Assembly (NCBI RefSeq): GCF_016592595.1 | Contig: NZ_AP012977.1 | Span: forward strand, 1,054,001-1,118,000 | Origin: Abyssogena phaseoliformis symbiont OG214 | Lineage (GTDB): Bacteria; Pseudomonadota; Gammaproteobacteria; PS1; Pseudothioglobaceae | DNA: 64,000 nucleotides | Direction of reading: 5' to 3' | In this document: piece by piece, positions 8,295-26,907 of the stretch | Position numbering within the stretch: position 1 is the first letter of the stretch | How the letters are laid out: the number at the start of each line of letters is the position of its first letter | Program-made: the position numbers and the translations under genes | Notes under the pieces: generated by a model | Databases searched by the model: none | The model's input: the letters and a program-made list of their open reading frames with translations, nothing else | Told to the model about the DNA's origin: nothing

Positions 8295-10259
8295 CTACTC
8301 ACCAAGACCCATTTGAATATAACCAGTCGGGCAAACATCAGCACAAATATGGCAACCAATACACTTGTTGTAATCAGTATCAACATATCTGCCTAACGTC
8401 GCCTTATCTTTCTTAACTTTAAAGACTGCGTCTTGAGGACAATACATCACACAGTTATCACACTCAAAACATAAGCCACAAGACATACAACGGGCCGCTT
8501 CTTTTTGCACTTCCTCTTCAGTATAGCCAATTAAACGTTCATCAAAGTTACCCAATACGTTGTCAATATCCACCAATTTGTGATTGCGTTGATTGCGTTG
8601 TTCATGATCAAAATGACCTAAAAACAATTCCGTATGTGGAATAATGGAAGCAAAAGCACGATCTTCATAATTATGTACCGCAAAATCGGCAGTATCTGTT
8701 GAGGCCGCAACATCGGAACCTTGCTCATAAGACTCAGGAGAAAGATCCCACTCTTTCAACTTATCCATTAAATCAAAGTAACTAACGTCAACCTTAGGGC
8801 GAGTATGTTGATCAGAGCCTGCCAAATAATCACCAATACTTTCAGCAACAATTGACGCTTGACCAATGGCAGTCGTTAATAAGTGTGGACGAACTACATC
8901 ACCACAAACAAAGAAACCTGGTTTATTAGGCACTTGATAGTTCTTATCTGCGTCAATAAATCCATGTTCATTAAAGAAGGAAGTGTCCATGCCTTCAGAA
9001 TCAACACCTTGACCAATGGCAGAAACAATCAACTCACATTCAATATCAAACTCAGAGCCTTCAATTGGTGTGTTTCCATCTTCTTCTAAACGAATCATAC
9101 GTAGTGCAGTTGCACGACCATCTTTTCCTGTAATTACTTCAATAGGTTGTAATTGACCTTGAATTTCAACACCTTCGCGAGTTGCATCATCAATTTCTTC
9201 TTGCGCTGCTGGCATGTTTTCAACAGTAGAGCGTGTTGTTAATAATACATCTGCGCCTAAACGCTTAGAAGTATCAACCACATCATGCGCTGTATCACTA
9301 AAAATAATATGTTCAGGACGATCTTTTTCAGCAATATTACTAATGTTGCCCAAACGACGTGCAACTGATACAACATCAATTGAAGTATCACCACCGCCAA
9401 TACAAATTACCTTGCCTGTAATGTGCTTTAAACGGCCTTGGTTGTACGCCTCAAGAAAAGCAACACCAGAGACGCAATTTGTTGCTTCACCGCCTGGGAC
9501 AGGCAACGTACGACCGCTCATAGCACCCATTGCAAATAAAACTGCATCAAATTCTTTTTCTAATTCATCAATAGTAACGTCAACCCCAACCTTAGTGTTC
9601 ATTCTAGTTTCAACGCCTGTATTGATAATACGATCAATTTCATAAGACAATACATCGCGTGGCACACGATAATCAGGAATACCGTACATCATCATGCCAC
9701 CTAATTGATCATATTTTTCAAATACAGTGACGCTGTGCCCCTGACGACGTAATTTAAGTGCTGCTGCTAAACCACCACAACCACCACCAATAATGGCAAC
9801 TTTTTTGCCTGTATCTTTAGTATCAACTTTAAATGTGTAACCTTCAACTTTTGCATTGTCGCCAATAAATTGCTCAACCGCATTAATACCAACCGTGTCT
9901 TCAATTTCATTACGATTACAACCATCTTCACAAGGCGCTGGACAAACACGACCCATCACCGATGGAAATGGGTTTGAATCTGTAGAACGTTGAAATGCAT
10001 ACTCCTGCCAAGATAGGTCACCAGAAGGCTTTTCCATACCGCGAACAATGTCTAACCAGCCACGAATATTATGCCCTGAAGGGCACGAGCCTTGACAAGG
10101 TGGTGTTTGAGTAACATAAGTAGGACACTTATGAGAAGTGTCTTCTTTAAAAATCTTTTGGCTCCACGGCACTGTTTTTAGCTCATCACCATCATCGGTG
10201 TATAATCTGAATGTGTGATTGTCGCCCTTAGTTGGTACGCCGTATGGGTTCTTTTGCAT
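8295..10259 (-). CDS. dsrL: DsrL, iron-sulfur flavoprotein NAD(P) oxidoreductase
   Basis: DsrL is a GltD-like flavoprotein that interacts with DsrAB and exchanges electrons with NAD(P)H during oxidative sulfur metabolism; it is characteristic of rDsr organisms. The 654 residues show N-terminal cysteine clusters (CQGSCPSGH, CPAPCEDGC), an FAD Rossmann motif IGGGCGGLAAA near residue 156, a second nucleotide-binding motif IGGGDTSIDV, and a C-terminal di-cluster ferredoxin domain (CMSCGLCFECDNC and CIGCHICADVC). The length matches A. vinosum DsrL. Presence of DsrL argues that the reductase runs in the oxidative direction. Confidence 0.96.
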   Translation of the reverse strand: MQKNPYGVPTKGDNHTFRLYTDDGDELKTVPWSQKIFKEDTSHKCPTYVTQTPPCQGSCPSGHNIRGWLDIVRGMEKPSGDLSWQEYAFQRSTDSNPFPSVMGRVCPAPCEDGCNRNEIEDTVGINAVEQFIGDNAKVEGYTFKVDTKDTGKKVAIIGGGCGGLAAALKLRRQGHSVTVFEKYDQLGGMMMYGIPDYRVPRDVLSYEIDRIINTGVETRMNTKVGVDVTIDELEKEFDAVLFAMGAMSGRTLPVPGGEATNCVSGVAFLEAYNQGRLKHITGKVICIGGGDTSIDVVSVARRLGNISNIAEKDRPEHIIFSDTAHDVVDTSKRLGADVLLTTRSTVENMPAAQEEIDDATREGVEIQGQLQPIEVITGKDGRATALRMIRLEEDGNTPIEGSEFDIECELIVSAIGQGVDSEGMDTSFFNEHGFIDADKNYQVPNKPGFFVCGDVVRPHLLTTAIGQASIVAESIGDYLAGSDQHTRPKVDVSYFDLMDKLKEWDLSPESYEQGSDVAASTDTADFAVHNYEDRAFASIIPHTELFLGHFDHEQRNQRNHKLVDIDNVLGNFDERLIGYTEEEVQKEAARCMSCGLCFECDNCVMYCPQDAVFKVKKDKATLGRYVDTDYNKCIGCHICADVCPTGYIQMGLGE

Positions 10260-10280
10260 ATCAAATCTCCTTATATTCGT

Positions 10281-11882
10281 TTAAGTTTCTGCTGTTTCTG
10301 TCGATGTGACATCATCAGTATCAGTTTGTGGTTCGTCCTTCTGGACTGCTGTTTGTGGCTTGTCCATAATAATTGCTTCACTCACTAACTGGTGAACACT
10401 CACAATCATGTATGGGTCAAAATCAAATTTAGGTAATACTTTAGAAAATTGCGACTTACAAATGGCACAAATAGCAGCCAGTGTATTAACGCCGTTATCT
10501 CTCTCAACCGCTTTCAGTGCTTGCATTCTTGGCATTGCACCTTTCACACGAATTTCCATTAAATCGTCTGTTAATAAGCCACCACCACCACCGCAACAAA
10601 AAGTAGCCTCCTTAATTGTGCTACGTTCCATATCAACATAATTATTACACACAGCTTTAATAACATCACGTGGCAAAATAAATTGACCGCTTGGAATGCC
10701 GCCCATATTAGTTGCACGGGCAACATTGCACGAATCATGAAAAGTAACTATGCGATCATCATTGGCAGACTTGTCAAAAGATAATTTACCTCTTTGAATT
10801 AAGTCATGGGTGTATTCAATAATATGTTGTGGTTGCGGATAACGATGATCTAATTGATCTTGTAATTTTTGAGCAAATTCATCAGTAGCCCCTGCGCCTG
10901 CGCCCGATAAAGTATTCCAAAAACTATAAGCAACACGCCAGGCATGTCCACACTCACCCACCATAACCCGTGACACTTCTAAATCAAGTGCAGCCTTGCG
11001 AATACGCAAAGCAGCCTTGCGCATCACATCATAAGAGCCAATAAACATACCAAAGTTTGCACCTTCAGAGGCATATGAACTTAGCGTCCAACTAACACCG
11101 TCTTGGTGAAATACCTTACCATAACCAATTAAACCATCAATATGAGGTTCAGCAAAAAAGTCTGCCGATGGGGTAATTAATAAAATTTCTGCCCCTTTTT
11201 GGTCTAAGGGGTATTTGACAGCAACCCCGCCTGTTTCTTCTTCAATTTCTTCTTCAAGGTCAAGCAATGTATCACGCAAAGCGGGCTCAGGCAAACCTAA
11301 GTTATTACCAATTGTTAAAGCCTTGCCTAAAATTTGATTACAATATTTTTGACCTATGCCAACCGCATCCAGCACTTCACGAGCTGCCATTGAAATTTCA
11401 GCTGTATCAATGCCGTATGGGCAGAATACTGAACAGCGACGACATTGTGAACACTGATGAAAATAGTTATACCAATCATCCAGCATATCATCATCTAACT
11501 CTTTAGCGCCTACCAATTTAGGAAAGTATTTACCTGCAAAGGTAAAATGGCGACGATACACACTTCTAAATAAATCTTGACGTGCAACTGGCATATTTTT
11601 TGGATCTGAAGAGCCTAAAAAATAATGACACTTATCAGTACAAGCACCGCATTTAACACACGAGTCTAAAAACACTTGTACGGAGCGATATTTAGACTTA
11701 AGTTCACCCATTTTATCAATAGCAACTTGCTGCCAATTATCTACTTTCTCACCAGGAAAGCCTAATGGGTTTTGAAATTCTTGTACGGATTTGAACGGAC
11801 CCTCGCCATCCATAATACCTTCTTTTAACTCAGGAATTTCAAGATAAGTGGGTAATACTGGAATGTCAAATTCTTTTGCCAT
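10281..11882 (-). CDS. dsrK: DsrK, HdrD-like Fe-S catalytic subunit
   Basis: DsrK is the cytoplasmic heterodisulfide-reductase-like subunit of DsrMKJOP, proposed to act on the DsrC disulfide or trisulfide. It has two 4Fe-4S motifs (CVKCGACTDKC and CSQCRRCSVFC) and C-terminal cysteine-rich elements including HDSC and CCGGGGGLL, the latter of the CCG type that binds the noncubane cluster. I use the ATG at 11880-11882 (MAKEFDIP), 7 bases after an AAGGAT; a start 3 codons upstream is possible but overlaps dsrM. The last 35 residues are a low-complexity acidic tail. Confidence 0.95.
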   Translation of the reverse strand: MAKEFDIPVLPTYLEIPELKEGIMDGEGPFKSVQEFQNPLGFPGEKVDNWQQVAIDKMGELKSKYRSVQVFLDSCVKCGACTDKCHYFLGSSDPKNMPVARQDLFRSVYRRHFTFAGKYFPKLVGAKELDDDMLDDWYNYFHQCSQCRRCSVFCPYGIDTAEISMAAREVLDAVGIGQKYCNQILGKALTIGNNLGLPEPALRDTLLDLEEEIEEETGGVAVKYPLDQKGAEILLITPSADFFAEPHIDGLIGYGKVFHQDGVSWTLSSYASEGANFGMFIGSYDVMRKAALRIRKAALDLEVSRVMVGECGHAWRVAYSFWNTLSGAGAGATDEFAQKLQDQLDHRYPQPQHIIEYTHDLIQRGKLSFDKSANDDRIVTFHDSCNVARATNMGGIPSGQFILPRDVIKAVCNNYVDMERSTIKEATFCCGGGGGLLTDDLMEIRVKGAMPRMQALKAVERDNGVNTLAAICAICKSQFSKVLPKFDFDPYMIVSVHQLVSEAIIMDKPQTAVQKDEPQTDTDDVTSTETAET

Positions 11883-18959: not shown

Positions 18960-19841
18960 ATGGATAATTCAATACTCATTGACCAATTTTTAGACAACTA
19001 CTGGCTTTCATCAGGCGCTAGCAAAAATACGCTATCGGCTTATCGTTCTGATCTTAATTTATTTTCAAAATGGGTCAATAAATCACTCACTGATATTAAC
19101 GATACACATATTAATCAGTACTTTAATGAGCGCCAATCAATATCCATGAGTACTGCCACACAAGCTAGAATACTCACCTGTTTACGTATTTTCTACCAAT
19201 ACTTAATGAAGCAAAAAGTCATAAAAAAAAATCCAACCGATAAATTACACCATCCTAAACAAGCGCAAAAACTACCCGTTTTTTTAAATATTGATGAAGT
19301 TGAAAGACTACTTAATGCACCCGATCATAACACTATTTTTGGCCTGCGTGACCAGGCCATGTTAGAGCTTTTATACGCTTGTGGACTGCGTGTCTCGGAA
19401 TTGATTAATCTGAGTTATCATCATATTAATCTGGCTGATGAATATATTCGCATTCATGGTAAGGGCAATAAAGAGCGCCTTTTACCTATGGGTGAAATGG
19501 TAATGGATTGTTTAACAAGTTACGAAAAAAACGCAAGACCATTTTTATTAAAAAATGGACAAACTAATGGTTATTTTCTAAGCAATCGTGGCACCAATAT
19601 GAGCCGACAAAATTTCTTTTACATCATCAAAGGCTACGCCATCAAAGCAGGTATTAATAAACCTTTATCACCACATACACTGCGCCATGCTTTTGCCACA
19701 CACCTTGTACAAAAAGGGGCAGACTTACGCAGTGTACAATTAATGCTCGGGCATAGTGATATTTCTAGCACACAAATCTACACCCACATTCAAAACACCC
19801 AACTTAAATCACAACATAGTAAGCACCACCCTAGAGGATAG
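18960..19841 (+). CDS. xerD: Tyrosine recombinase XerD
   Basis: XerD acts with XerC at dif to resolve chromosome dimers. The 293-residue protein has the N-terminal core-binding SAM-like domain and the C-terminal catalytic domain with Arg in ACGLRVSEL, the HTLRHAFATH box, the LGHSDIS histidine region and the nucleophile tyrosine in IYTH. Length and spacing are those of XerC/D, not of phage integrases. XerD rather than XerC is my call from general resemblance. It follows the rplS terminator with a short gap. Confidence 0.9.
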   Translation: MDNSILIDQFLDNYWLSSGASKNTLSAYRSDLNLFSKWVNKSLTDINDTHINQYFNERQSISMSTATQARILTCLRIFYQYLMKQKVIKKNPTDKLHHPKQAQKLPVFLNIDEVERLLNAPDHNTIFGLRDQAMLELLYACGLRVSELINLSYHHINLADEYIRIHGKGNKERLLPMGEMVMDCLTSYEKNARPFLLKNGQTNGYFLSNRGTNMSRQNFFYIIKGYAIKAGINKPLSPHTLRHAFATHLVQKGADLRSVQLMLGHSDISSTQIYTHIQNTQLKSQHSKHHPRG

Positions 19842-19919: not shown

Positions 19920-21562
19920 ATAAGCAATAGCCTTATTACTATCCATATTATTTTATTTATTTTTATTTCAACAATCGCACATGCAAGCCCATATTCTATA
20001 TTAAAAAAAATGAAACAACAGCCGTCCCAATTATTGTTAAAAACAGATTATCTTAAAGAAATAGCGCCCCTTTAAAAGGACTACAAAATTGGCGTAGTGG
20101 GCACGATATTCTTAAAATTAAAGAGTGGCTAATGCTATGGCAGCTTAATGAAAACTTCACTAGCAACATTATTAGGCTTAAACCCCACATAGTGTTTGAC
20201 CAAACAAGTGCAACAATTTCTCAACCTGACCGCTACAGGTATACCTGATAATACGGCTTGGAAAGCCCTAGCTTCACTGATGACTAAAGCATTTAACATT
20301 CGGGTTTTTTCCAATAGAATCTTGCGTGAAAAAATGAAATGTTCTGCCACTAAACACTTGCAATATAGGGCGTCTGAATTAGTAGAGAGGAATATTGGAC
20401 CATGAATTAGGGCTTATATGAATGACCATGATGGTGATTGGGCGTACTGGTGTCAAGGTTTTGTATATACTATTTTAGACCAAACTTTTAGCACTATTGG
20501 CGAATATTTTAGTGAATACTGCGCCGATACTTGGGCAGTTGAAGTTATGCGCAAAAAACACGCACTAAAAAATTATTGGCGACCCATCAGCAACTCAAAG
20601 ATAAAACATACGCACCCCAAGAGGGCGACATTGTGCTGTACATATCCACTAAGGATGGTCACGCTCATCACACGGAAATTATTTATCAAATTTTAAATGA
20701 AAAAAATGGCGATATGCTTACCATAGGTGGCAATACTAGTTTTTCTGGTGGTAGAAATGATGTTGGCACATTTTTAGTAGATAGAAATTTCCTAGATGAA
20801 GATGTAGAAGTTATTAAATTAGTTGATATTGAAATTATTAATCAACATAAGAAATATCCAGGCAATGTACGAAAATTACTAAGAAGCTACCCAAATATAA
20901 TTGCTACTTTTAATGACAATCACATCATCTTTAAAGATAGCAAGCGTTTATTATTTAATGATAATAAAACTAAAACACCTGATGAATTACTCACTAATCC
21001 AGACATTAAAGATCAATTTCATTATCCTTATCAAAAAGGTGTGGTTACAACACCGCCCAAACCTCGTTTTGATCCGGAAAGAATTACCAATCAAGATTTT
21101 TTCAAAACCACGTATGGCAATACTCAAGAAAAAGTTGAGCAAAACCTTACTGAAATTATTTGGGCACCAAAACTTGATGAGCGTAAAATTAAAGTAACTA
21201 AAATCAATGGCGTGGCAAGCAAAATAAAAGCCATTGGTGAAGAGTTGGATAACTATCCAAAACTCGAACCATTCATCCACAATATTGCAGGAAAGCTATA
21301 AGTGGCGTAAAGTCAAAGGCACTAATCGATTAAGCCTACATAGCTTTGGTATTGCAATTGACCTTAATATTGCTGAATCTAGTTTACTGGGAATGGAATT
21401 GCAAATGTAGCGATGAACACCAAATTCTTGCTCCACATGTTAATAAAATCCCACAAATTATTATTGATACTTTTGAGAAATATGGTTTTATTTGGGGTGA
21501 AAAGTGGTATCACCACGACACCATGCACTTTGCACTTTGCATATAGACCTGAATTATTATAA
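19920..21562 (+). pseudogene. Broken peptidoglycan hydrolase: signal peptide, PG-binding, CHAP-like and M15 peptidase domains
   Basis: Pieces in three frames line up into one protein. A signal peptide ending AHAS is at about 19,920-20,000; a PG-binding-like repeat (GLQNWRSGHDILKIKEWL, then VQQFLNLTATGIPDNTAWKAL) at 20,075-20,290; a CHAP-like amidase domain (GDWAYWCQGF, then EGDIVLYISTKDGHAHH) at about 20,420-20,800; and a D-Ala-D-Ala carboxypeptidase of the M15 type (TNRLSLHSFGIAIDLN, GEKWYHHDTMHF) at 20,840-21,546. At least six frameshifts or stops separate them. Near the end a 7-base tandem duplication CACTTTG (21526-21532, 21533-21539) breaks the frame; removing it restores an ending HFAYRPELL and a stop at 21560-21562. 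The longest open piece, 20,576-21,301, is 241 codons. No ATG is found at the expected start. Confidence 0.85.
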
Positions 21563-21564
21563 AA

Positions 21565-21772
21565 CGTAAATATCTCAACACTTAATATTTCATAAGAAAT
21601 ATCACCTTTGGGTGCTTTCACTGTTACTTCATTGGTGGATGGCACAAAATATTATCTAGTACAATGTCGGTCTTATTTTTGACCACAATTTAGTACGCAA
21701 TTTCACTATCATCCAATGTTCATTAACGTCATCGTAATACTAAACACACAATGACTACTTTGGTTAAGTGAG
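21565..21772 (-). pseudogene. Decayed duplicate of the greA 3' half
   Basis: The sequence aligns at base level with the 3' part of the intact greA at 23,222-23,698. Matches include the region coding VKAPKGD.YEIL (GGTGCTTTCACTGTTACTTC shared exactly on the plus strand) and, further in, TTTCACTATCATC and TTGGTTAAGT. About the last 80 codons are represented, with small deletions and frameshifts, so it cannot be functional. It lies between the M15 hydrolase pseudogene and the CDP-alcohol phosphotransferase gene, on the same strand as greA. Confidence 0.88.
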
Positions 21773-21776
21773 TTTA

Positions 21777-22427
21777 TTATGCATCATTGCTAACGCTCTT
21801 GCTTGTAAAAAAAGCATACAAATAAGTTGTAAAAAAAACAATGGCAATATAAGGTGTTAAAATTGGCAACAATAAAGATATTATTAGTGAGATGTTAATC
21901 AATATGACTGATGATGCTGTTTTAGCTTGGCTACGGATCATCGCTGTCATTTTCTTTGATGATGACATGGAGATTGTGTTAAAAAGTAACACAACAACCA
22001 AAAGATAATCAGGATTGATATGAAAAATATTAGCCAACAGTAATACAAATAATAAATGACGCATTAGCTCATTCGTAGGTGAGCCACCGCCAAGGATGTC
22101 AGGATTTAATCTAAAAGTTGCCCGAAGAATAACTGCACCTGAGGCGACTATACTTGCAATAAGCACTACCCCGCCAAAATGTACTCCTAATGCAAACGTT
22201 ATGGCGACATGAGCAACTGCATCACAAACATTATCTAAATCAGCACCAAAGCGACTTTTAATATTTAGTTTTGTTGCTAAAATACCGTCAAGATCATCCA
22301 TAACATTGTTAAAAACAATCAGCGGAAGTAAATATTGATATCCATCATCTAGATACAATAAAGCCAAAGGCAAAACGCCTAAGATTGAAACAACATTAGC
22401 TATATTTTTAAATAAGAAACGCCTCAT
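21777..22427 (-). CDS. CDP-alcohol phosphatidyltransferase family protein
   Basis: This is a 216-residue integral membrane enzyme that would transfer a phospho-alcohol from a CDP-alcohol to an acceptor. The family motif is present at about residues 45-67 as DGILAT...GADLDNVCD, giving the aspartates and glycines of DGxxARx8Gx3Dx3D, except that the usual Arg of AR is Thr. Five to six hydrophobic segments surround it. It starts in a 1-base overlap with the end of the nucleotidyltransferase gene, so the two likely form one pathway: the transferase makes a CDP-alcohol and this enzyme uses it. The substrate is not readable. Confidence 0.8.
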   Translation of the reverse strand: MRRFLFKNIANVVSILGVLPLALLYLDDGYQYLLPLIVFNNVMDDLDGILATKLNIKSRFGADLDNVCDAVAHVAITFALGVHFGGVVLIASIVASGAVILRATFRLNPDILGGGSPTNELMRHLLFVLLLANIFHINPDYLLVVVLLFNTISMSSSKKMTAMIRSQAKTASSVILINISLIISLLLPILTPYIAIVFFTTYLYAFFTSKSVSNDA

Positions 22428-23161
22428 TAGTTATTAAGGAGCTTTTCTGCCGCTTCTAAATCTTCAATGGTATCAATCTCATACCATTTTTTCTCATCAA
22501 ACATAATGGCTTCAAAGGACAGGGTCTTTTTTACTACTAAATCCGCAAAAACAGCCTCATAATAAGTGTTGAGATTCTTTGCAGAAATATAATTATCCAA
22601 TCTATCTAGCACCTTATACCAACTATCTAAAGATAAACTACAAATATTAACGGTTTTATAATGTGGGTTATTTGAAATATTAGCAGACATATGAAATATA
22701 TTCACTTTATCATCATCATCTAATGACACTGTTGTGCCATTCATCCATGGTAGAATATTTGATAATGCAATACGATTTGGATACATCATGTTATCTAAAA
22801 GATTAGAATCGAATACCAAATCGCTTTCCACCAATATAAAATCTTCTTTAATGGCTTGTCTAGTCAGCCACAAAGAATAAATATTATTGGTTGTTTGATA
22901 ATCAGCATTGAATATATATTCTATTTTTATATCACCAGCATGTTGGTCTAAATATTCACGAATACGGTGCTCTAAATAGCCCGTTGCTATAATTATTTTT
23001 TTAATACCTTGAATACGAAATGTGTCTAATAAATGTTGTAGAATAGGCTCGCCATTAATAATGGTAAGACATTTTGGCGCATCCAAAGTGAGTGGTCGTA
23101 GGCGAGACCCTGTACCAGCAGCTAATAAAACAACAGTTGTAATTCGTTGATTGTCTTTCAT
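22427..23161 (-). CDS. Sugar/phosphocholine-type nucleotidyltransferase (LicC-like)
   Basis: This 244-residue protein has the nucleotidyltransferase signature LLAAGTGSRLRPLT at residues 13-26 with PKCL following, the NNIYSLWL segment and a metal-binding aspartate in ESDLVFD. The NNIYSL pattern is shared with phosphocholine cytidylyltransferase LicC and related enzymes using phospho-alcohols. Together with the following CDP-alcohol phosphotransferase it would make and use a CDP-activated alcohol for lipid or surface modification; choline, inositol and phosphonate substrates are all possible. There is no lic-type kinase nearby. Confidence 0.75.
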   Translation of the reverse strand: MKDNQRITTVVLLAAGTGSRLRPLTLDAPKCLTIINGEPILQHLLDTFRIQGIKKIIIATGYLEHRIREYLDQHAGDIKIEYIFNADYQTTNNIYSLWLTRQAIKEDFILVESDLVFDSNLLDNMMYPNRIALSNILPWMNGTTVSLDDDDKVNIFHMSANISNNPHYKTVNICSLSLDSWYKVLDRLDNYISAKNLNTYYEAVFADLVVKKTLSFEAIMFDEKKWYEIDTIEDLEAAEKLLNN

Positions 23162-23221
23162 GGTATTCCTCTTCGTTATTCAGCTTAATATTTAGGACCG
23201 TTGTAACACAATCCAAAAAAC

Positions 23222-23698
23222 TCAAATATACTTAACGTTTAATATCTCATAAACAATATCGCCCTTAGGTGCTTTCACTGTTACTTCATCACCTTCTTCG
23301 TTGCCCATTAATGCACTAGCAATTGGTGAATGACACGAAATCTTACCGAGTGCAATATCAGCTTCATCTTCGCCCACAATTTGATACGTAGTTTCACTAT
23401 CATCTTCAATGTTCATTAGGGTGATGGTAGTGCCAAAAACACAACGACTGTTTTGGTTAAGTTTAGCAACATCAATCACTTGCATACGAGAAAGTTTTGA
23501 TTCAACTTCTTTAATTCGACCCTCAATAAAGCTTTGTTCTTCTTTAGCGGCGTGATATTCAGCGTTTTCTTTAAGATCACCGTGAGCACGTGCTGTGGCA
23601 ATATCTTCAATAATGCGTGGACGGCTAACATCTTTAAGTTTAAGTAGTTCTGCTTCTAATGCTTTTGCACCAAAAACGGTCATTGGTATATTTTCCAT
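23222..23698 (-). CDS. greA: Transcription elongation factor GreA
   Basis: GreA enters the secondary channel of RNA polymerase and stimulates cleavage of backtracked RNA. The 158-residue protein has the N-terminal coiled coil with ARAHGDLKENAEYHAAKEEQ and the C-terminal FKBP-like domain ending with APKGDIVYEIL. Its ATG shares one base with the carB stop (TAATG), so it is coupled to carB; an internal start 5 codons later (MTVFGAK) is also possible. A second, degenerate copy of its 3' half lies 1.5 kb downstream. Confidence 0.96.
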   Translation of the reverse strand: MENIPMTVFGAKALEAELLKLKDVSRPRIIEDIATARAHGDLKENAEYHAAKEEQSFIEGRIKEVESKLSRMQVIDVAKLNQNSRCVFGTTITLMNIEDDSETTYQIVGEDEADIALGKISCHSPIASALMGNEEGDEVTVKAPKGDIVYEILNVKYI

Positions 23699-26600
23699 TA
23701 TGAGTGTAGTGATTGAAGTTTAGTTATGGTAAGTTTATTATTGGCTTTCAAGCCATCCAACATAGCAAATGCAGCTGCTACTGTGGTGGTAAATGGTACT
23801 TTATGTACTAATGCTTGACAACGAATCGCTGCAGCATCGGTCACGCCTTGGGTGTCTTCAGTTGAGTTAATAATCAAATCAATATCATCATTTTTAATCA
23901 TATCGACAATATGTGGTGAACCTTCTGATACCTTATTAACCACTTCGCATTCAAGCCCAGCTTCATTTAACATATCTCTATTACTACGTGTTGAAACCAA
24001 GCTAAAGCCTTGTGCTGATAATTTTTTACCCAAATCAATCAACTCGTTACGGTCAAGCTTGCGCAAACTAACAAACACCTTGCCATTTTCTGGCGCACGA
24101 CTGCCTGCTGCTAATTGGGCCTTATCAAAAGCTGAGGCAAAATCTTTACCAATACCCATTACTTCGCCTGTTGAACGCATTTCAGGACCTAAAATTGGGT
24201 CCACACCTAAAAATTTATTAAATGGGAATACGGCCTCTTTGACACTAAAGTGCTTGGGAATAATTTCTTTGGTAAAATTCTGCGCTTTAAGCGACACACC
24301 TAACATCACACGTGCAGCAATATTAGCCAGTGGCACGCCAATTGCTTTAGAAACAAAAGGTACTGTGCGTGAGGCACGTGGATTAACTTCAATAATATAA
24401 ATCTCACCATCTTGATAAGCTAATTGGGTATTCATTAAACCAACCACGTTTAATTTTTTAGCCATGGCGACAACTTGAGCACGCATTTTATCTAATACCT
24501 CATTGATCAATGAATAAGGTGGTAGTGAACAAGCGGAATCACCTGAATGAATACCTGCTTGCTCAATATGTTGCATAATACCGCCAATCACCACATCTTC
24601 ACCATCACAAATTGCATCAATATCAACCTCAATGGCATGGTCTAAAAATGAATCTAGCAAAACAGGGGAATCGTTTGATACTTGAACTGCTGTGTGCATG
24701 TAATGCTCAAGGCTGTCTTTGTCATAAACAATTTCCATTGCTCGACCACCAAGCACATAAGAGGGTCTAACCACCAATGGAAAACCAATTGCATCTGCAA
24801 TATCTTGCGCTTGCTCTAATGAACGCGCTGTACCATTTAGCGGCTGCTTAAGCCCTAATTCTTGCAACATTTTAGAAAAACGCTCTCTATCTTCAGCTAA
24901 ATCAATAGCATCTGGGGTTGTGCCAATAATATTGGCACCACTTTTTTCCAATGCTTCAGCCAGTTTAAGTGGTGTTTGACCGCCATAATGTACAATAATA
25001 CCATCTGGATTTTCAACATCAATAACCGCTAAAACATCTTCTAAAGTTAATGGCTCAAAATACAAACGATCTGAAATATCATAATCAGTTGAGACCGTTT
25101 CAGGATTACAATTTACCATAATCGTCTCAAACCCATCTTCTCGTAAAGCAAGTGATGCATGCACACAGCAATAATCAAACTCAATACCTTGCCCAATACG
25201 ATTAGGCCCACCACCCAAAATCATAATTTTTTTCTTATCAGTTGGGTTGGCTTCACACTCAAACTGATAAGTTGAATATAAATAAGCAGTCTGAGTCTTA
25301 AATTCTGCCGCACAACTGTCCACTCGCTTAAACACAGGTTTAATGTTAAGTGCACGGCGACGTTCACGCACTGAAGATTCGCTACAGCAAAATAATTGCG
25401 CCAAACGTGCATCAGAGAAGCCTTTACGCTTCAAAGTAAACATTTTATCAGCATCAACATCGGTCACATTCGTGCCGTTAATTTGTAACTCAGTTGAAAC
25501 AATGTCTTGTATTTGCGCTAAAAACCAAGGGTCAACTTTAGACAAATCAAACACTTCATCGATACTCATGCCTAGTCTAAAAGCATCAGCTAAATAAAAA
25601 ATGCGTTCACCTCGGGCTGAAATACATTCAGAGCGTATTTTATTGCGCGCATCGTCAGCGTTCAAATCAACAATAGGATCTAATCCGACCTTGTCGGTCT
25701 CTAGTCCTCTTAATGCCTTTTGTAAAGATTCTTGAAAGGTTGAGCCAATAGCCATTACTTCGCCCACAGATTTCATTTGCGTGGTTAAACGATCATCCGC
25801 TTTAGGAAATTTTTCAAAGGCAAATCTTGGAATTTTAGTGACTACATAATCAATACTTGGCTCAAAAGAGGCTGGTGTTTTACCGCCTGTAATGTCATTG
25901 TCAAGTTCATCTAAAGTGTAACCTATGGCTAGTTTTGCGGCCACTCTAGCGATAGGAAAACCTGTTGCTTTTGATGCCAGTGCGGACGAGCGAGACACAC
26001 GTGGGTTCATCTCAATAATGGTTAAACGGCCATCTTTTGGATTAAGCGCAAATTGCACATTTGAGCCGCCTGTATCAACCCCAATTTCACGAAGTACTGC
26101 CAATGAAGCATCACGCATTACTTGGTATTCTTTATCAGTTAGTGTTTGTGCAGGTACAACAGTAATTGAGTCGCCTGTATGAATACCCATAGGATCAAGA
26201 TTTTCAATCGAACAAATAATAATACAATTATCTTTGCTATCACGCACCACTTCCATCTCAAACTCTTTCCAACCAAGAATCGACTCTTCAATTAAAAGCT
26301 CATTAGTCGGCGAAAGATCCAAACCTCGTTCGCAAATTTCAACAAATTCCTCGACGTTATAAGCAATGCCACCACCACTACCACCCATGGTAAATGAAGG
26401 GCGAATAACGGTTGGAAAGCCGACTGTTTCTTGTACAGCGTGCGCTTGCTCCATATTATGAGCCACAGCTGCTTTAGGCATATCAAGGCCAATTTTTAAC
26501 ATCGCCTCACGGAATAAATCACGATCCTCAGCTTTATCAATGGCTTCTTTTTTAGCGCCAATCATTTCCACATTATGTTTTTTAAGCACACCATGACGCT

Positions 26601-26907
26601 CTAAATCTAGTGCACAATTAAGTGCGGTTTGCCCGCCCATAGTCGGCAACAACGCATCGGGTTTTTCTTTTTCAATAATTTTTTCAACCGTACGCCACTC
26701 AATTGGCTCAATATAAGTTGCATCTGCCATTTTTGGGTCAGTCATGATGGTGGCTGGATTGGAATTAACCAAAATAACACGATACCCCTCTTCGCGCAAT
26801 GCACTGCAGGCTTGCGCACCAGAATAATCAAACTCGCAAGCCTGACCAATCACAATAGGTCCAGCGCCGATAATTAAAATACTTTTAAGGTCTTGTCTTT
26901 TTGGCAT
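23698..26907 (-). CDS. carB: Carbamoyl-phosphate synthase large subunit
   Basis: CarB makes carbamoyl phosphate from bicarbonate, ATP and ammonia supplied by CarA, feeding pyrimidine and arginine synthesis. The 1069 residues show the two homologous ATP-grasp halves, each with a pre-ATP-grasp segment ([20 protein letters not shown] at the start and [17 protein letters not shown] mid-protein) and ATP-binding glycine loops ([22 protein letters not shown]), and a C-terminal MGS-like regulatory domain. The length matches E. coli (1073). mlaA lies between carA and carB on the same strand. Confidence 0.97.

Follow-up and report, generated by a model that had tools for sequence, protein, structure and literature searches.

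Probable fusion of two alternative xerD-greA gene layouts in a clam symbiont chromosome

Why does a symbiont chromosome carry a decayed 3' part of greA and, in the same orientation, an intact greA, with two enzyme genes set between them? The locus lies in a 64-kb stretch (the window) of the chromosome of the Abyssogena phaseoliformis symbiont. A preliminary description of the window had read the repeat as the trace of integration at, or recombination through, the 3' end of a gene, and had named a plain segmental duplication followed by decay as the alternative. Neighbouring genes were mapped in 21 stretches, namely the window and 20 loci from 19 other genomes, with G044 treated apart. The genus is here the 12 genomes searched, the window's own included.

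The site is bordered by a core gene for an XerD-type tyrosine recombinase (18960–19841, + strand; NCBIfam XerD equivalog, 359 bits against a cut-off of 330), which in the neighbouring-gene map adjoins greA in relatives both with and without the two enzyme genes. It is followed by a peptidase gene (20196–21546, +) that is decaying through frameshifts and stops, with open pieces only; its homologue is broken in G040 too, and the C-terminal piece from that genome matches Peptidase_M15_4 at 6e-16 (an M15-type D-Ala-D-Ala carboxypeptidase domain). An intergenic stretch (21547–21563) of the same type as in module-free relatives leads to the greA fragment (21564–21769, −) and a joint (21759–21776) at which a short sequence is possibly shared. 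Beyond it lie an intact CDP-alcohol phosphotransferase gene (21777–22427, −; 216 aa; PF01066, 29.7 bits against a cut-off of 22) and an intact nucleotidyltransferase gene (22427–23161, −; 244 aa; PF00483), hereafter the module. Both are open and, as the preliminary description had stated, they are the only genes between the two greA copies. A further intergenic stretch (23162–23221) separates the module from the intact greA (23222–23698, −; 158 aa), which the NCBIfam GreA equivalog confirms at 247 bits against a cut-off of 180, and the core gene carB (23698–26907, −) flanks the site.

A decayed copy of the last ~80 codons of greA had been described at 21565–21772, with a base-by-base alignment proposed as a check. 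The copy is real, with slightly different limits: the fragment aligns with the intact gene from nucleotide 237 (codon 79) to the stop region, at 79% identity over 205 columns and with deletions of 34 nt and 2 nt. The local alignment score is 220.5, compared with 46 for the best of 200 letter shuffles, and the pair is the sole self-match of the window at E 1e-8. Against a genus consensus of seven greA rows, the fragment differs at 12/65, 9/65 and 14/66 of first, second and third codon positions, whereas the seven intact copies, which themselves make the consensus, differ mainly at third positions (6–11 of 66). Because its differences are spread over all three codon positions, the fragment was probably already a pseudogene during most of the time since it separated; 18 of its 35 changes are G>A or C>T, a bias. 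Used together as a DNA query against the 12 genomes of the genus, the fragment and module matched 11, and a second greA-like stretch came up only in the window's genome, although more decayed fragments elsewhere could escape such a search. The genome without a match was G044, the single greA of which was found with a protein query.

Among the relatives, the xerD-greA site has two alternative layouts, and the window holds both in series. In the first (P), xerD is followed by a decaying M15-type peptidase gene, greA and carB, without the module, as in G040, G041 and G036, where peptidase-homologous pieces lie between xerD and greA. Peptidase remnants also stand beside greA in G035, G042 and G038, and G034 retains a short stretch of the peptidase/greA junction alone. 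In the second (M), the order is xerD, CDP-alcohol transferase gene, nucleotidyltransferase gene, greA and carB. This is the arrangement of G059, a genome outside the genus that matches the record of the Bathymodiolus heckerae SOX (thiotrophic) symbiont (NZ_FXLV01000006.1), and neither a peptidase gene nor a second greA was found at its locus. G037 has the M layout beside greA in decayed form. In G039 a rearrangement splits the CDP-alcohol gene, so that its end lies 64 nt from xerD while its start and a broken nucleotidyltransferase gene lie beside greA, ~187 kb away; no peptidase was found in that genome by whole-genome DNA search. In G043 only the start of the nucleotidyltransferase gene is left beside greA, and no greA fragment was found. 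In the outgroup loci of G056, G051, G052, G057, G058 and G080, xerD adjoins greA and both cargoes are lacking; G061 has the two genes apart, and xerD was not found at the greA locus of G055. As separate observations, the G044 contig (L092, G044:C97, 1–192) breaks off 192 bases beyond greA, where the sequence matches neither layout, and a 97-nt peptidase remnant lies on a different contig of that genome. A 105-nt CDP-alcohol piece (residues 4–38) occurs at three places in G039 (L073, L093–L095; C1 671655–671759, 840132–840236 and 1219056–1219160); one adjoins the broken nucleotidyltransferase gene, and the piece has possibly spread with an insertion sequence.

We searched 141 nt around each of six window junctions in the loci of 15 genomes, 11 from the genus and four from outside. 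The junction of xerD with the P flank is spanned in G040, G041, G036, G042 and G043. The peptidase-greA junction is spanned in 7 of the 11 genus relatives, at 84–86% over 140–145 columns in G040, G041 and G036 and at 75–77% over 100–101 columns in G034, G035, G038 and G042; it thus occurs in relatives that lack the module. A short extension in G055 also satisfied the spanning rule there and was discounted. At the other end, the module-greA junction is of M type, spanned in three of the 11 (G037, G039 and G043, at 72–76%). The junction between the two module genes is spanned in G037, G039, G059 and G055, and greA-carB in 13 of the 15, the exceptions being G055 and G051. The junction of the greA fragment with the CDP-alcohol gene was spanned in none of the 15 genomes' loci, nor did a whole-genome DNA search of the genus give a match across it. 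Hence, the junctions of P and of M are both present in the window, together with a joint that is private to it.

These results bear directly on the idea that the 3' end of greA was the entry point of the module and that the gene end was left behind as an attachment-type repeat. A direct repeat of a gene 3' end does flank a sporadic two-gene module, and the module genes are horizontally transferred: their synonymous distances between the window and G059 are 0.45 and 0.83, below the 1.13–1.68 of six core genes including greA, which indicates that the module, but not greA, moved between mussel- and clam-symbiont lineages or into both. However, the module stands beside greA without a fragment in G039, G037 and G059, as does the nucleotidyltransferase start in G043, so the module is not confined to genomes with the duplicate, a comparison that the preliminary description had proposed as its own check, with fragment-free carriers of the module at this site named as a refutation. 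The repeat is moreover 205 columns at 79% rather than a short identical core, the peptidase-greA junction is found without the module, and the module consists of two enzymes, the neighbouring XerD being a core gene present in module-free relatives. With fragment-free M carriers and no integrase belonging to the module, an integrative element at greA is rejected, and we regard entry at greA as improbable. A repeat of a gene end that flanks a module does not, on its own, count as evidence for an integrating element. Of the earlier reading, recombination through the 3' part of greA is best supported, ahead of plain duplication; the module entering at greA with the repeat as its footprint does not hold.

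The fragment occupies the place that greA has in module-free relatives, and it is therefore most simply the 3' end of the resident greA, still in its old place. We consider it likely that a P-type and an M-type chromosome recombined at the xerD-greA site, with one side of the exchange anchored by homology and the other joined illegitimately inside greA, stranding the 3' end of the resident gene. One end of the exchange would have passed through homologous DNA, which could be greA/carB at one flank or xerD/rplS at the opposite one. At the second end, greA of the P chromosome would have been joined near codon 79 to M-type DNA lying shortly beyond the CDP-alcohol gene, an 11-nt near-match perhaps having helped. 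At the joint, greA reads ACTTAACCAAA and the module end of G039 reads ATTTAGCCAAA, with 9 of 11 positions matching (chance 0.007 by simple resampling, for a motif chosen after the joint was seen and with true parents that may differ). The product would carry both layouts in series, a complete greA beside the module and the last 80 codons of the other greA beside the peptidase gene, and the stranded piece would then decay. We infer this order and direction of events, with the homology anchor and the short-match joining, which fit homology-facilitated illegitimate recombination (HFIR), in which one end is anchored by homology, the other is joined illegitimately and incoming DNA is integrated (PMC3240628; PMC5361080). 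As expected of an HFIR product, only the fragment-CDP-alcohol joint is private among the six junctions, the others being common to one or other parent type.

Several points count against this fusion, among them the flanks of G043, the divergence of the fragment and published accounts of how rare such events are, all taken up below. In a tree of the fragment (198 columns, 18 rows), in which one of 15 branches was starred, the fragment leans weakly towards the window's own greA (76/67), as would be expected had part of greA simply been duplicated inside an M-type chromosome and then decayed. Six sites distinguish the window's own greA from a state common to six relatives, and there the fragment agrees with the window's own greA at one, but it has the relatives' state at four and another state at one. 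Duplication would also need to account for a copy placed next to the peptidase gene, behind an intergenic stretch of the type seen in module-free relatives. This alternative, named in the preliminary description, we consider very improbable. The greA trees favoured neither chromosome as the donor.

Recombination around the site is shown independently by carB, the two halves of which give conflicting trees of 11 rows each. In the greA-proximal half, the window, G040, G041 and G036 form one clade (99/99), which is rejected in the other half (p-AU 1.7e-5); there G040 and G039 pair (99/99), a grouping rejected in the greA-proximal half (p-AU 3.3e-5). Since these groups were chosen after the first trees had been seen, the AU p values are optimistic. 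A sliding identity scan from greA to carA gave no clean breakpoint, and no breakpoint is tied to the fusion event itself.

The age of the fusion bears on its main rival, in which the fused layout is old: a common ancestor of several clam symbionts would have had peptidase gene, greA fragment, module and greA in series. The module would then have disappeared from P carriers, for instance when the greA repeats recombined with each other, and the peptidase gene and fragment from M carriers. The fragment is about as diverged as the genus radiation, judging by the codon-position counts above. In G043 the xerD flank is P-like (identities of 92% over 26 nt and 95% over 21 nt) and the greA flank is M-like, the two now lying 56 kb from each other; the fused state may therefore extend beyond the window's genome. 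Against an old fused ancestor, the module end lies ~50–64 nt from xerD in G039 and in G059, which is outside the genus, with no peptidase or fragment remnant found, and the outgroup loci carry neither cargo. Several independent losses would be required, and the first fusion would need the same recombination anyway. We therefore think an old fused ancestor with later losses unlikely, albeit less so than the other alternatives.

Under the preferred fusion of P- and M-type chromosomes, the event may still predate the last exchange of the peptidase region, since most of the fragment is more diverged than its neighbour: 137 nt of it differ from G040 greA at 34 positions (25%), compared with 95 of 1,109 (8.6%) for the adjacent peptidase region. 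Pseudogene rates and the G>A/C>T bias may explain part of this excess. The 59 nt of fragment nearest the peptidase gene differ from G040 greA by only 10%, compared with 25% for the other 137 nt (Fisher p 0.021, uncorrected), which hints at a later overwrite, although the two-speed pattern is weak, with p under 0.05 for 3 of 8 intact greA copies compared likewise.

An assembly chimera of two co-occurring strains, one P and one M, would also place both layouts in one sequence. Both exist in the genus, and vesicomyid clams are reported in which a single host carries two symbiont strains (PMC3704533). However, the genome is a single contig of 1,542,177 bases with 99.99% completeness and 0.31% contamination, and decay of the fragment is not what a recent chimera, built from two intact greA copies, would show. 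We give this explanation almost no weight.

The kind of event proposed here is already known, and the window is an example that is clean at junction level. HFIR is known from experiments with three naturally competent species, and it occurs at low frequency in E. coli (PMC3240628), whereas here the product alone is seen, with an imperfect short match at its joint. PMC5361080 describes such illegitimate joining as quite rare, with a frequency several orders of magnitude below that of ordinary recombination. The same report describes type VI secretion (T6SS) effector displacement in Vibrio cholerae, in which a resident gene gives way to an incoming module and the end or partner of the displaced gene is left downstream as an orphan, and its authors propose an HFIR-like mechanism with reserve. 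The orphans that it describes are mainly kept immunity genes, whereas the orphan in the window is a decayed core gene fragment.

In vesicomyid clam symbionts, recombination is reported to be modest, below that of mussel and solemyid symbionts (PMC7473567), and the data of one clam-symbiont study are described as giving no support for recombination between co-occurring strains (PMC3704533). recA is reported as kept in some clam symbionts and lost in others (PMC3202245), in line with our finding that the window's genome and six others of the genus (7 of 12) have the gene and the remaining five lack it. The published accounts of modest recombination and of recA loss concern within-population sequence variation and gene loss, whereas the window holds a joint of two gene layouts. 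No earlier report of the xerD/greA arrangement was found in the literature on greA with Vesicomyosocius or Calyptogena, or more broadly on greA and gene fragments, as covered by titles and abstract starts, with most subscription journals outside the scope. The window offers a base-level example of two alternative gene layouts that appear to have fused. The lineage has kept recA, and it belongs to a symbiont group in which inheritance is largely maternal and little recombination is reported.

More tentatively, the xerD-greA stretch could be a recurrent cargo slot in Thioglobaceae symbionts, holding lineage-specific genes that are swapped between species through recombination in the conserved flanks, with the same lipid-headgroup-type module having reached the slot in both mussel and clam symbionts. 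Were this possibility true, the window would be a case of two cargoes held at once.

What the module does can be approached from its sequence relatives. The CDP-alcohol phosphotransferase of the window is 88% identical to the copy in the B. heckerae symbiont (G059), and a long match to it occurs in 3 of 83 family genomes (the window's own, G059 and G055), with pieces in G039. By sequence, the nearest solved structures to the nucleotidyltransferase are the CTP:phosphocholine cytidylyltransferase 1jyk (5.7e-18) and the nucleotidyltransferase/aminotransferase 6pd1 (7.7e-13), and it is likely a cytidylyltransferase for a phospho-base. Among the best 80 of 113 relatives, with some loci cut by contig ends, a nucleotidyltransferase (E 1e-12) is present in 70 and a methyltransferase related to one query (E 1e-6) in 49. 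No such methyltransferase was found at the G059 and G055 module copies (named loci L147 and L177), and other loci also go without; in the window the two module genes overlap by one base, leaving no room for one between them. The choline kinase family matched one of six genomes at E 1e-3 (G039) and none over the cut-off, with 5 of 14 controls matched and 2 of 14 over the cut-off. The PEP mutase family matched three of the six and exceeded the cut-off only in G000 and G037, in open frames of 405 and 450 aa, and these matches are therefore probably other enzymes of that superfamily. Together the module genes would fit a role in lipid headgroups. The module is intact in the window and the mussel symbiont and decaying in G037, G039 and G043, and it is a candidate symbiosis-linked lipid trait. 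Nothing relevant was found in the literature on the module with mussel symbionts (titles and abstract starts, most subscription journals being outside the scope).

Some further module copies are worth recording. In G055 (L083, ~8570–9300 and 9237–10815; named counterpart L177, Ca. Thiodubiliella TVD4-1sym), the module lies at a different place, between RNase R-like and ilvD-like genes, named by eye from translations; peptide strings recur in stretches of both the CDP-alcohol gene and the ilvD-like gene, which suggests a repeated short insert. The nearest module outside Thioglobaceae among the best 80 of 113 relatives is the two-gene copy of a Cycloclasticus symbiont of a poecilosclerid sponge (L148, 4282–5618), at 75–79% protein identity and with synonymous distances near saturation. 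Within the same 80, greA was matched at two loci, that of the B. heckerae symbiont and that of a gammaproteobacterial MAG (L156, 2569–4839), in which the CDP-alcohol gene end of the module faces the greA 3' end.
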